DNA from: a virus | DNA length: 23,849 nt | Virus record (IMG/VR): IMGVR_UViG_3300048034_000303 | Coordinates: 1-23,849 of that record | Reading direction: 5' to 3' (one strand) | Program-made: the position numbers and the translations under genes | Notes under the pieces: model-generated | What the model was told of the DNA's origin: nothing | The model's database searches: none | The model's input: only the letters and a program-made list of their open reading frames with translations | Shown: piece after piece, positions 6,814 to 21,570 of the stretch | Layout of the letters: each line of letters begins with the position of its first letter | Position numbering within the stretch: the first letter of the stretch is position 1

Positions 6814-7307
6814 TATCTACAAGCGTCTCCTGTGTCGTTAATCAAACTCATATCATCATTGGCGACTTGAAGCGTTACGTTCATACTCCAACCAGTAAGT
6901 AGGTTCTCAAACCTATCCTCAAACAGACTTGCGTTTATGTCAGATACGATTTGGTATTTATCCCTAAACAACTCACCTCTGCGTAATGAAGCCTGTAACC
7001 CATTGATTACTGTCAGTTGGGTGTTCAATATGTCGTGCTTGTTGTCAAGTCCTCTGTACGGAATAGTCGCTGTGGCGAGTTTATCATCTTTCGTCTCATC
7101 TACTAAATCCATACAAATTACCTGCAAGTTAAACTCCATTACATAATCCGTGAACGATACGCTTTGGATATTGACGTGCGCCAATGGGAATATAGTTTGC
7201 TTAGACAAGTCCACTTGGAATATATCGCCAAAGGTAACTGTATTGACAGATGGGCTGCCGTTTAGGTAGGTGTATAATTTATCTACTAAGTCGTAATACT
7301 CTCTCAT
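6813..7307 (-). CDS. Probable tail terminator / minor tail protein
   Basis: A 164 aa protein with an N-terminal helix (MREYYDLVDKLYTYLN), strands containing FPLAHVNIQSVSF and VMEFNLQVICMDLVDE, a helix with LNTQLTVINGLQASLRRG, and a final FENLLTGWSMNVTLQV. Strand-helix-strand proteins of this size that contain a 'xxLVDE' strand followed by a long helix are typical of tail terminator-type proteins in Bacteroidetes phages. The ATG overlaps the stop codon of the frameshifted upstream product (TGA at 7304-7306), which supports reading of that hidden frame. Family assignment is by pattern only. Confidence 0.5.
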   Translation of the reverse strand: MREYYDLVDKLYTYLNGSPSVNTVTFGDIFQVDLSKQTIFPLAHVNIQSVSFTDYVMEFNLQVICMDLVDETKDDKLATATIPYRGLDNKHDILNTQLTVINGLQASLRRGELFRDKYQIVSDINASLFEDRFENLLTGWSMNVTLQVANDDMSLINDTGDACR

Positions 7308-7573
7308 TTGTTTTTATTGTATGCGTTCTTTATTAGTTGTGATTCCAATTCGTTCTTCTCTTTTTCAAATGTTAGGTAGTTGAGGCATTGGAATAATTCG
7401 CTTTCTGTGACGGCATCGAACCGAAGGACATTTCCTTGAGCGAGTCCATATATTGACTGATACCATCCCCACTTTGAGCCAAAGTTTGCTTGAGCAGATA
7501 GGTCTGTTCTTCCGTCAGACTCTTTTGTATATAGCTCGGGATAGCTCTCAATAACTCCTTCGCTAAATCGTAA
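7304..7573 (-). CDS. -1 frame extension of the tail chaperone (translational frameshift product)
   Basis: A second frame, offset by -1, is open from about 7630 to a TGA at 7304-7306. It has no ATG that I can find, so it needs a shift from the 237 aa gene. Entered at the T9 tract it adds 89 residues after Phe171, giving a 260 aa fusion. The added sequence reads like a real domain: ANFGSKWGWYQSIYGLAQGN, then VLRFDAVTESELFQCLNYL and an end TFEKEKNELESQL. Its stop overlaps the next ATG as ATGA, the same junction style as the rest of the operon. About 200 bp are therefore read in two frames. Lambda G/GT-type frameshifting is established knowledge; the site here is inferred. Confidence 0.72.
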   Translation of the reverse strand, partial: LRFSEGVIESYPELYTKESDGRTDLSAQANFGSKWGWYQSIYGLAQGNVLRFDAVTESELFQCLNYLTFEKEKNELESQLIKNAYNKNK

Positions 7574-8085
7574 AAAAAAACCATAGCACTCATAGCTACG
7601 CTGAGTGGCATCTCCTTCATTAGTTCAGACACCTCATCACTTGGGTCGTATGGCGCAATAGTATATTTTTCTTTACTTCTAAAGTTTACTGGGCGATAAA
7701 GCACAGCCATCGCTTTGTGCATTGTTTCCCATTCTGAGATGTTGTCTTCTGCGTCTATATATTCGCCAAGTGATATACGTTCTAGGTTAGGTATGAACCC
7801 CATATCTACATTGAGTAGTTTAAAATGGCGAATTATCTCAGGTCTTTCCTCAAACGCTTTGCCGAGTATTGCCAATACTTTCTCAACCTCCGATACTGGA
7901 ATACGCATTACGTCTTTTAGTTCTACATTACAGAATATCTCGATGAGTTTCATATTTAGAAAGTCAGTTGCGCTCTCATCATCTTTGTTCTGTTCAACAA
8001 GTTTCATATACCTCTGATATTGTCCAAGCGTAATATCGCCAAGAGTAGTAGGTACTGATAATGTTAGTTCTACTTGTTTTCCCAT
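7372..8085 (-). CDS. Probable tail assembly chaperone, short (non-shifted) form
   Basis: The 237 aa zero-frame product is mostly helical: LTLGQYQRYMKL-type N-terminal segment (about 18-32), FLNMKLIEIFCNVELKDVMRIP, then FIPNLERISLGEYIDAEDN and a helix with WETMHKAMAVLYRPV. A hydrophobic stretch (LSVAMSAMVFFYDLAKELL, 161-179) is encoded over a run of nine T residues. The C-terminus carries SGDGISQYMDSLKEM. Its role as a chaperone is inferred from the overlapping -1 frame described separately and from its place in the tail operon; lambda G/GT is the model. It could instead be a structural adaptor. The promoter at 8530-8560 may serve this operon through the 83 aa gene. Confidence 0.55.
   Translation of the reverse strand: MGKQVELTLSVPTTLGDITLGQYQRYMKLVEQNKDDESATDFLNMKLIEIFCNVELKDVMRIPVSEVEKVLAILGKAFEERPEIIRHFKLLNVDMGFIPNLERISLGEYIDAEDNISEWETMHKAMAVLYRPVNFRSKEKYTIAPYDPSDEVSELMKEMPLSVAMSAMVFFYDLAKELLRAIPSYIQKSLTEEQTYLLKQTLAQSGDGISQYMDSLKEMSFGSMPSQKANYSNASTT
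7572..7580 (-). promoter_or_regulatory. Candidate -1 frameshift slippery tract (T9)
   Basis: Nine T residues in the zero frame read G-GTT-TTT-TTT-TAC (Val-Phe-Phe-Tyr). Both tRNAs can re-pair after a one-base backward slip on T TTT TTT. This is the only strong homopolymer inside the region where zero and -1 frames are both open (about 7630-7372). A later site such as the C-AAG-CAA-ACT-TTG stretch near 7490 cannot be excluded. Confidence 0.5.
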
Positions 8086-8138: not shown

Positions 8139-8280
8139 ATATATAATACACTCTTATATATAGTACATTGTATAGTATATAGTACATTGTATAATAGAGT
8201 ACGTTGTATAGAATGAAATAATATATTAGTACGTTGTATATATAATACATTGTATAGTATATGGTACAATGTATTATACT
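8139..8280. repeat. TACRTTGTA repeat array C1
   Basis: Six copies of a 9 bp core lie at 8164, 8183, 8200, 8230, 8246 (TACRTTGTA) and 8265 (inverted, TACAATGTA), spaced 16-30 bp apart. The larger unit is about TAGTACRTTGTATA. The last two copies form a perfect 14 bp inverted repeat (8241-8254 with 8265-8278, 10-base loop) whose right arm contains the stop codon of the 83 aa gene. A separate short hairpin, CTGCC-GTAGT-GGCAG, sits at 8123-8137. No coding frame here is convincing. The array lies between the 83 aa gene and the tail chaperone gene; a similar array lies at 21443-21570. Confidence 0.85.
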
Positions 8281-8920: not shown

Positions 8921-9928
8921 TTATACGACGCCTAGACAAGTGTTGCAGTAACTTTCGTTTGTGTACTCGTCCCAAACTACGCTCGGTTGATTGCAACCGC
9001 AATACTCGTCCTCCTCTTGAGTTGTCGTGCTGTTGTTGTAGCTCGGTTCATAGTCGTTAAAAAGGTACCTATTGTAGCTGTTGTAGTTGTAGCTTGGTTC
9101 GTATGACTTCATATACTTACCTGTGTCGGTCGTGTCGTTGAAGTATAGCCATGCGTTAACCTGTTGGCCATTATCAAGCGTTACAAGGGTCTTTTCTCGC
9201 TTGTACCATGTTGGGTGTCCTTCAAGCCCATCAACCGCTTTCAGGGTCTTTGAATTGACTGCGAAAACGTCAACAGCTATATTATGACCTTTGCCGTTTT
9301 TTGGTAGCGCAAAGGGTATGCCGTCTCCAACCATTCGAATCTTATCTACGCTCTTTCCTTTGCCTATATAGCTGGCTTTGCTTAGGTAGTGATAGTAGTT
9401 ACTATTGCCTTTTTTGAGTGTACCATATACCGCCAATAGATGCTCGTCCAATACATTGTCCTTGCTGTATAGGGTTCCGTCTTGCTCGTGCCAATCCTCC
9501 TCGTTGTAAATTGCGAATTTACGTTTCTGTGTGTCTGCGGTTACAAACCTACAATTGTACGTCTCCAGTAATGAGCGCCAATGGCGTGGGTGCAAGTCGT
9601 CCAATATCTCGGATAAGTGTTTGGTGTCGCTCTTGACTTGGTTGCCAAGTCCTCGAATCGTCCCATTTTGGAAAAGGTACGCCTGTTGCCTGTCCATGTA
9701 AAATGGGTGGTAGTTAGATTTATCAACTGCGCCAATGGTAGCGTATCTAAAGTGCGCAATGTATGGGCGCTTGGTTTGTAGGCGTTTCCAGTCCTGTGAA
9801 TCGTGGTAACTTACTTTCCAGCTGTCCAACCATAAGATACCAAGCCCATCGGGGTTGATTTCTGCTGACTTTCTTAGAATTGATTTACTGATTTGCTTGT
9901 CGTGGTCTTTTACAATTATTATACACAT
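8921..9928 (-). CDS. Class-II glutamine amidotransferase fused to gamma-glutamylcyclotransferase
   Basis: Two catalytic domains are joined in one 335 aa protein. Residues 1-~150 are an Ntn-type glutamine amidotransferase: Met-Cys start (Cys2 as nucleophile), HFRYAT at 59-64, HPF at 74-76 and QNGTIRG at 87-93. Residues ~160-265 are a GGCT/AIG2-like domain: VYGTLKKGN (167-175) and GLEGHPTWY (234-242), with Glu236 the likely acid/base. A Tyr/Asn-rich linker and a C-terminal CGC...CNTC cluster (310-331) may bind zinc. GGCT releases 5-oxoproline from gamma-glutamyl amines; the class-II domain splits glutamine. The gene lies 27 bp after an amidoligase gene, the partner expected for such enzymes. 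Natural substrate unknown. Confidence 0.88.
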   Translation of the reverse strand: MCIIIVKDHDKQISKSILRKSAEINPDGLGILWLDSWKVSYHDSQDWKRLQTKRPYIAHFRYATIGAVDKSNYHPFYMDRQQAYLFQNGTIRGLGNQVKSDTKHLSEILDDLHPRHWRSLLETYNCRFVTADTQKRKFAIYNEEDWHEQDGTLYSKDNVLDEHLLAVYGTLKKGNSNYYHYLSKASYIGKGKSVDKIRMVGDGIPFALPKNGKGHNIAVDVFAVNSKTLKAVDGLEGHPTWYKREKTLVTLDNGQQVNAWLYFNDTTDTGKYMKSYEPSYNYNSYNRYLFNDYEPSYNNSTTTQEEDEYCGCNQPSVVWDEYTNESYCNTCLGVV

Positions 9929-9955: not shown

Positions 9956-11161
9956 TTATTGAATGAAGTCTTCGATTTCAGGGTGTGTCGCATCGTTTAT
10001 AAGGTAGTACCTAAAATGTCTTGACAGGCGGTTTATTTTCTCAACCTGTCTTTCGGTTGCTTCCTTGCTGTCACGCTTGTACATACGCTTTAAATTGGGC
10101 CTTAGCTTAGACAACAGTACTTCGAATGATACAGGACGCTCGAACGTGTGGTACAATATCTTGAACATAAGGTCGTACCTATTTTTCAACTGCTCTGCGT
10201 TTTCAACTTTAGAAGGTAGGCGCAATTCAATACGTCCTCCGCTTTTGACAACTACTGGGCTGTATTTGGTATTTTCGCCTTTATCCATCTTCTTGTTATT
10301 CTTGCAATAACTATTTTGCAACCTGTATCGGTACATGGCGTATATGACCGCTAAATTGTGTTTTAGCTTGTCTAATATATCCCAACCATCTTCAAGACCT
10401 TGTTTCTTGCTTGATATGTTTATATGTCCTCCGCAACTGCTGTTGGTTGGGCTGTTGATGATTTCAGCGGCTTGGTCGATTAAGTAAAAAACATATTCTC
10501 TCGCCTTGGATTGCTTTCCGCCTAATGGTAGCACGTTTGTTATTGCCTCAACTCCGCAACTGCTGTCGGTCTCGAATCCTTTAAACAGGTCGAAACTTCC
10601 TACATGGTCTCCCCTATCAACTAAGTTTGAACCATCTACACAAAAATGATTTTTTTCTATCTCGAACCCTATCGAAAAATCGGTGCGGATTGAACCACAA
10701 TTCAAGTCCTTATGGGTCGGGCTGTCGTGGTAGCTGGATATGACTTCATCTCGTGGGTGTCGTGGCTCGATTTCATCGTCCTCGTGGTAGTACATTCCTC
10801 TTATTGCGTCCCATTGGGCGTGGTCTATATGTATCCATTCGCCTTCATGCCTTCCTCCTTCCAATATAACATAGTCGCTGTCGTCTTCTAAATTATCCCT
10901 GTGCGCTGTAATTCCGCAAAGGGTTTGACGTTGGTAGTCGGTGTCTAAGTAGCAGTTGTCGCTAATCTCACAATAAAAGTGGTCTGTGCTTTCATGAATC
11001 CAGCCGCTGTCGTATGTGTCAATAGCTTCGTCTATATGGACAAACTCGTCCTCGTGTTCACTCCATATAAACTCGTCCCTGTTTTCTTCCGTTACTTCAG
11101 TTCCACAATAGGCAATACCTAATACTTCAACTTCTGTGTTTTCTGTGTTTTGTGTTTCCAT
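9956..11161 (-). CDS. COOH-NH2 amidoligase family protein
   Basis: The 401 aa product carries the ordered motifs of the Amidoligase_2 family (a glutamine-synthetase-like fold): SIGFEIEK (163-170, E-x-E), ETDSSCGVEAIT (197-208), SSCGGHINIS (241-250, G-x-H-x-N) and GGRIELRLP (308-316, R-x-E-x-R). These probably hold metal, ATP and the carboxylate substrate. The C-terminal third is helical and basic. The first ~150 residues are strongly acidic with scattered Cys/His (CGT, HESTDHFYCEISDNC, TLCG) and may be a degenerate metal-binding module. The enzyme should form an amide or isopeptide bond using ATP. It sits between a 41 aa membrane peptide and the amidotransferase-GGCT fusion, all one operon. 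Confidence 0.85.
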   Translation of the reverse strand: METQNTENTEVEVLGIAYCGTEVTEENRDEFIWSEHEDEFVHIDEAIDTYDSGWIHESTDHFYCEISDNCYLDTDYQRQTLCGITAHRDNLEDDSDYVILEGGRHEGEWIHIDHAQWDAIRGMYYHEDDEIEPRHPRDEVISSYHDSPTHKDLNCGSIRTDFSIGFEIEKNHFCVDGSNLVDRGDHVGSFDLFKGFETDSSCGVEAITNVLPLGGKQSKAREYVFYLIDQAAEIINSPTNSSCGGHINISSKKQGLEDGWDILDKLKHNLAVIYAMYRYRLQNSYCKNNKKMDKGENTKYSPVVVKSGGRIELRLPSKVENAEQLKNRYDLMFKILYHTFERPVSFEVLLSKLRPNLKRMYKRDSKEATERQVEKINRLSRHFRYYLINDATHPEIEDFIQ

Positions 11162-21442: not shown

Positions 21443-21570
21443 TACTATATATAGTACAATGTATAGTAATAGTACATTGTATTATACGCTATACAACGTA
21501 CTATGGTATATTTACTTATAGTACATTGTACTCTATTATACAACGTACTATAAGTCATACGTTGTATCAC
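21443..21570. repeat. TACRTTGTA repeat array C2
   Basis: Six cores: 21455 (TACAATGTA), 21473 (TACATTGTA), 21492 (TACAACGTA), 21522 (TACATTGTA), 21539 (TACAACGTA) and 21558 (TACGTTGTA). A 17 bp inverted repeat with one mismatch pairs 21514-21530 with 21539-21555 around an 8-base loop. The upstream HTH gene ends inside the array (TAG at 21548-21550), so its last residues are encoded by repeat sequence. The array sits between the HTH gene and the primase-helicase, where phage origins often lie. Compare array C1 at 8139-8280. Confidence 0.82.

Follow-up and report, generated by a model that had tools for sequence, protein, structure and literature searches.

The window, a stretch of viral DNA of 23,849 nucleotides, carries on its minus strand a 237-aa open reading frame (8085-7372) which, judging from the ORF list, a 34-member alignment and an AlphaFold model, would encode the short, "G-like" product of a gene with two products. 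Within this frame lies a run of nine T's (7580-7572, minus strand; coding strand TTTTTTTTT), decoded in the zero frame as GTT TTT TTT TAC (G TT|TTT|TTT|T AC), which is the window's sole homopolymer of at least nine nucleotides. The -1 frame is open from stop to stop over 7624-7304 (106 codons) and contains no ATG; an ORF of at least 60 aa initiated by ATG, GTG or TTG was looked for in it and none was found, and the frame is without an in-frame start. The position of T9 is compatible with joining the two frames, and a slip there would lead into a C-terminal, "T-like" domain of 89 codons and a TGA (LRFSEGVIESYPELY...NAYNKNK; 7573-7304, minus strand), as supported by alignment A6 and an AlphaFold model. 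The predicted fusion would consist of residues 1-171 of the 237-aa product (to Phe171), common to both forms, and 89 aa from the -1 frame (7573-7307), giving 260 aa. Beyond the slip, a region of ~66 codons (7571-7372, minus strand) appears to be read in both frames, as indicated by codon-position and synonymous-shuffle tests. The -1 frame TGA (7306-7304) and the ATG of the next gene (7307-7305) overlap as ATGA. These coordinates agree with a first-pass annotation made from the sequence alone, which had described a 237-aa zero frame ending at 7372, a nine-T run in the overlap probably joining the upstream protein to the -1 frame in a 260-aa fusion, the ATGA overlap and about 200 bp read in both frames; its -1 frame, open to 7304 and lacking ATG as claimed, starts at 7624 and not at about 7630.

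The next gene (7307-6813, minus strand; 164 aa) is a homologue of P12024L_42 and is followed by a 184-aa gene (6813-6259, minus strand), a homologue of P12024L_43, with a weak HK97-gp10-like tail-component match of the homologue. At 2412-358 on the same strand lies a gene for a 684-aa homologue of P12024L_50; the protein has no family match, and its make-up, a coiled coil and a hydrophobic segment, suggests that it is tape-measure-like.

Conservation of the run and of both frames

A tblastn search with the zero-frame protein led to the isolate phages P12024L and P12024S (30% identity), and a search with the -1 sequence, for which the first-pass annotation had expected conserved phage matches, hit the same two phages at the same place and in the -1 frame. 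These Nonlabens (Persicivirga) phages are direct relatives with the same T9, frames and gene order, and their corresponding genes (40/41 in P12024L and 38/39 in P12024S) are annotated as separate hypothetical proteins, without a frameshift. Viral contigs scanned with four queries, together with scanned bacterial genomes, gave more than 200 loci; after removal of duplicates, 240 distinct sequences cover the junction, and one contig stops short of it. The relatives range down to ~30% identity and include the Nonlabens phages as well as Flavobacteriaceae genomes. The run is T9 in 185 and T10 in 55 of the 240, with none shorter or longer, and the profile of the -1 domain finds its best match in the -1 frame in every one of them, which upholds the earlier claim that this frame encodes a real domain. 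No version of the domain fused in frame, and none in a +1 relation, occurs among these distinct sequences. When loci were retrieved blind to the run, by way of a motif ~100 nt downstream, the run was present in 79/79 readable cases, and T9 is also carried by three Flavobacteriaceae genomes found with the -1 profile. In one sequence (L042:4471-4578) a stop interrupts the -1 frame 33 codons past an intact T9 while the zero frame is intact, which may be an error or a natural loss.

In most relatives the conservation of the -1 domain roughly matches or exceeds that of the shared N-terminal part, and alignment A6 contains a WGWY motif and four invariant residues (F34, W40, Y41, and L70). The zero-frame tail after the run spans 54-66 codons in most relatives and about 25-27 in P12024L; compared with the window, the tail of P12024L/S is short (only ~27 codons). 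Upon synonymous reshuffling of the -1 frame, the per-sequence probability that the zero frame stays open as far as is observed has a median of 0.008. The three codon positions also differ less in their substitutions in the overlap (0.33/0.29/0.38, in -1 frame order) than they do in the N-terminal part (0.36/0.25/0.57). Together these two results suggest that the overlap is dual-coded, with both frames under constraint and the -1 frame more strongly so. Overall, the alignments point to two constrained frames, a fixed relation between them and a run length fixed at 9-10. Since the -1 frame and T9/T10 are kept in 240 relatives and both frames are apparently constrained, the 260-aa fusion is near certain as the predicted second product of the gene.

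AlphaFold models the zero-frame product with pLDDT values mostly of 82-96 over residues 11-180 and below 50 after residue ~206; an N-terminal domain is confidently modelled and the end of the protein is probably disordered. The -1 domain is modelled as helical with moderate confidence (pLDDT 73). The +1 frame meets a stop no more than three codons past the run in 171/176 relatives; transcripts lacking one U would truncate neatly where the shared domain ends, and this stop may simply follow from the conserved TTTA.

Proposed slippage of polymerase or ribosome

What appears to be conserved in the run is its length and not its codon register. Among the relatives the first T of the run falls on codon position 1, 2 or 3 (phases 0, 1, and 2), and on a tree of 207 sequences the register has changed at least 11 times and the length 10. 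Five sequences have lost the right-hand T and in 5/5 the left side had gained a T, while three have lost the left-hand T and in 3/3 the right side is extended (Fisher 7e-6 for right loss and 0.004 for left loss, uncorrected for relatedness; on the tree, the right-hand losses are only about two independent ones). The counts as a whole are only partly adjusted for phylogeny. Amino-acid constraint (Phe-Phe followed by Tyr/Trp/Phe/Leu) could account for the retention of some of the flanking T's. The missing silent changes of TTT to TTC within T9 were set aside as an argument, as they could stem from a preference for TTA over CTA as the Leu codon of the -1 frame.

The same two products could be made by programmed -1 ribosomal frameshifting on an in-frame U_UUU_UUU in the fashion of lambda G/GT, a route which we regard as possible, at about one chance in four. 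Every T9 contains this heptamer in frame whatever its register, all sequences thus offering a canonical X_XXY_YYZ site, and the identical protein would result from a -1 slip of the ribosome on U_UUU_UUU and from a single U inserted by the polymerase. The ribosomal route is, moreover, the one taken for the tail chaperone shift in lambda and most tailed phages (PMC5009743). However, a T7 or T8 retaining the heptamer in the right register would suffice for the ribosome, yet neither is ever seen among the 240 relatives, in which the register slides while the length holds at 9-10. An RNA stimulator 3' of the run was also looked for and not found (z-scores of individual folds from -1.0 to +1.2; 0 pairs by RNAalifold), nor is there an Rfam match in the window, and in E. 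coli U_UUU_UUU shifted less than A_AAA_AAG (PMC5009743).

The distribution of T-runs in other genes bears on the same choice. Runs of T≥9 number 0 against 25 expected under two shuffling schemes in 1,191 other genes of the same contigs, a set from which chaperone genes were excluded by a profile filter; 201 chaperone genes together contain 201 such runs. Shorter T-runs appear to be avoided irrespective of register and with no excess in the slippery-heptamer register: in other phage genes T7 is depleted about equally in the three registers (observed/expected of 0.58/0.60/0.52), and T8 stands at 0.15 in the register without an in-frame heptamer versus 0.37/0.31, on small counts (2, 6, and 3). 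Ribosomal slippage would predict avoidance to be strongest in the heptamer registers, and the observed pattern therefore argues against it. In a 280-kb Flavobacteriaceae genome stretch carrying the element, runs of 6-7 are avoided little or not at all, and those of 9 drop (T, 0 versus 4.7 expected; A, 1 versus 17). Long runs could in part also be avoided because they are unstable in replication. In coding sequence of the phage genes of the fetched loci, runs of A≥9 are also depleted (19 versus ~95-97 expected), less completely than those of T≥9.

The fixed length, the sliding register, the avoidance of T-runs and the lack of a stimulator fit slippage of RNA polymerase (+1 U) better than a ribosomal -1 shift. 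The slippage threshold of Baranov et al. is 9T/9A (PMC1088944), and transcriptional insertions in E. coli and Buchnera are mostly of a single base and occur at A/T runs (PMC5574713). Programmed slippage is recognized by an uninterrupted A/T run of at least nine in an ORF overlap that is kept among homologues, as is the T9-T10 of 240/240 relatives, and by selection against such runs elsewhere in coding sequence, as is found here. Another of its marks is a set of transcripts that differ in run length. The genes that are known to use it (Shigella mxiE, Thermus dnaX, 9A IS elements, and Citrobacter tssM1) likewise have a long A/T homopolymer in the ORF overlap, no stimulator structure was found, and runs of at least nine are otherwise avoided in coding sequence. 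In contrast to those genes, the present case belongs to a tailed-phage tail module, appears to be lineage-wide with selection on both frames, and its slippage is putative, resting on sequence.

Under polymerase slippage, standard decoding would give the 237-aa protein; stuttering of RNA polymerase on T9 would add one U and yield an mRNA that is read into the -1 frame, and this reading would produce the 260-aa fusion with its helical WGWY domain. The two products would probably constitute a tail-assembly chaperone pair made in a set ratio, by analogy with lambda gpG/gpGT. We infer that slippage takes place at transcription, that both proteins are produced and that they have a chaperone role. 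The explanation as a whole, in which RNA polymerase slippage on T9 yields a tail-chaperone-like pair of 237 and 260 aa, is assigned a probability of roughly 0.68. It is likely, to a marginally smaller degree, that in this marine Bacteroidetes tailed-phage lineage the ratio of the chaperone forms is set by RNA polymerase slippage on T9-T10 and not by the ribosome, with ~60 codons read in both frames. A ribosomal contribution alongside polymerase slippage is possible.

The gene as a putative tail chaperone

In lambda, G/GT lies directly upstream of the tape measure and after the major tail protein, and chaperones of the lambda type bind the tape measure and are absent from the mature virion. As in lambda gpG/gpGT, here a single gene is predicted to give two products with a common N-terminus by means of a -1 shift close to where the first ORF ends, the C-terminal domain lies in the -1 frame without a start of its own, and the gene is situated upstream of a tape-measure-like gene in a tail block. 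By the same analogy, the shared domain would bind the tape measure and the -1 domain would recruit another tail subunit. The present gene differs from gpG/gpGT in that sequence similarity was not found, the overlap is long (~66 codons) and dual-coded, the putative shift site is a homopolymer (T9/T10) instead of a mixed ribosomal heptamer, and four genes lie between the gene and the tape-measure-like gene. The first-pass annotation had implied a ribosomal shift of the lambda type immediately ahead of the tape measure; with these intervening genes, and with the evidence favouring RNA polymerase slippage, that part of its reading is not supported in the form given.

The order of terminase, the homologues of 42, 43, 45, 46, and 50, and the protease-like 01 is identical between the window and P12024L. 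The terminase is followed by the dual-product gene and then by tail-like genes, the last being the coiled-coil tape-measure-like gene; unlike in P12024L, several extra genes separate the terminase from the chaperone gene in the window. Known tail chaperones are very diverse. Comparison by hhalign with lambda G and T gave no similarity, profile and Foldseek searches returned no homologue of solved structure and no PDB match, and the VIA structure comparison reached Z ≤2.7 only. As these comparisons revealed no homologue among lambda G/T or solved structures, the chaperone role is proposed from context, namely the operon position, the downstream tape-measure-like gene and the G/GT-like architecture. 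The "tail chaperone" of the first-pass annotation is thus sustained by position and architecture, although the profile comparison with lambda G/T contributed nothing.

The same lack of homology would suit a dual-product gene with another role, such as a head-tail connector or other assembly factor, as would the position of the P12024L gene, which lies between the terminase and small tail-like genes and away from the tape measure. We consider such a role unlikely, more so than the ribosomal route. A block of this kind that encodes a product pair with a shared N-terminus plus a -1 domain conforms to the pattern known for tail assembly chaperones (PMC5009743), and two products from one N-terminus by a -1 shift are their hallmark. 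The downstream block of conserved order runs to the tape-measure-like gene, and there are weak matches to a PHROG "tail protein" and, in BFVD, to a viral fold annotated as tail assembly chaperone (E 0.11). A distant fold match was also obtained with gp10 of Flavobacterium phage 6H (L300:10352-10927), in which a downstream domain is seemingly in another frame; the ORFs around its T6/T5 stretch do not join simply.

Remaining alternatives and significance

At the DNA level a homopolymer of 9-10 is prone to mutation, and replication slippage could in principle toggle the gene between fused and unfused states. Such phase variation was rejected as highly improbable: the -1 relation is identical in 240/240 sequences, with none fused in frame or in +1, and the T10 forms keep the frame relation, having arisen without a net one-base shift (e.g., by GTT to TTT beside the run). 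Some sequencing methods are error-prone at homopolymers, but a T9 created by sequencing or assembly error, or a -1 frame that is merely a decayed gene end, is the most improbable reading of all and was rejected, as the same run occurs in isolate phages, Flavobacteriaceae genomes and hundreds of metagenome contigs and the -1 domain is strongly conserved.

A tail chaperone gene with two products is of a known kind; what is new is the route through a T-run and the long dual-coded overlap. The -1 shift of tail chaperones is among the most conserved recoding events of tailed phages and has been described as ribosomal (PMC5009743). We found no description of transcriptional slippage in a phage tail chaperone in the literature searched, from which most subscription papers were absent, among them the 2004 chaperone-frameshift survey. 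If polymerase slippage is true, this lineage would attain the same two-product outcome by way of the polymerase, and selection would thus hold the product pair and not the mechanism. A parallel is provided by dnaX, in which frameshifting is ribosomal in E. coli and occurs by transcriptional slippage in Thermus. For annotation, a T9-T10 followed ~100 nt later by the WGWY motif may serve as a rule for a pair now entered as two hypothetical genes in isolate phages. The presence of the element in cultured phages makes it an easily testable case, and polymerase slippage would, if true, be a new means to a familiar phage end.

Two further features of the window were observed. Between the terminase and the tail genes lies an adjoining pair of genes (8921-9928 and 9956-11161); the first carries a domain of the gamma-glutamylcyclotransferase (GGACT) type along with a weak match to glutamine amidotransferase, its partner (401 aa) has no Pfam match, and the pair may modify peptides or nucleotides. 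The motif TATACAAYGTACT occurs nine times with one mismatch allowed (0.3 expected by chance), in two AT-rich clusters (8162-8256 and 21453-21549), one of them just upstream of the chaperone gene; the copies resemble operator or phage-specific promoter elements.
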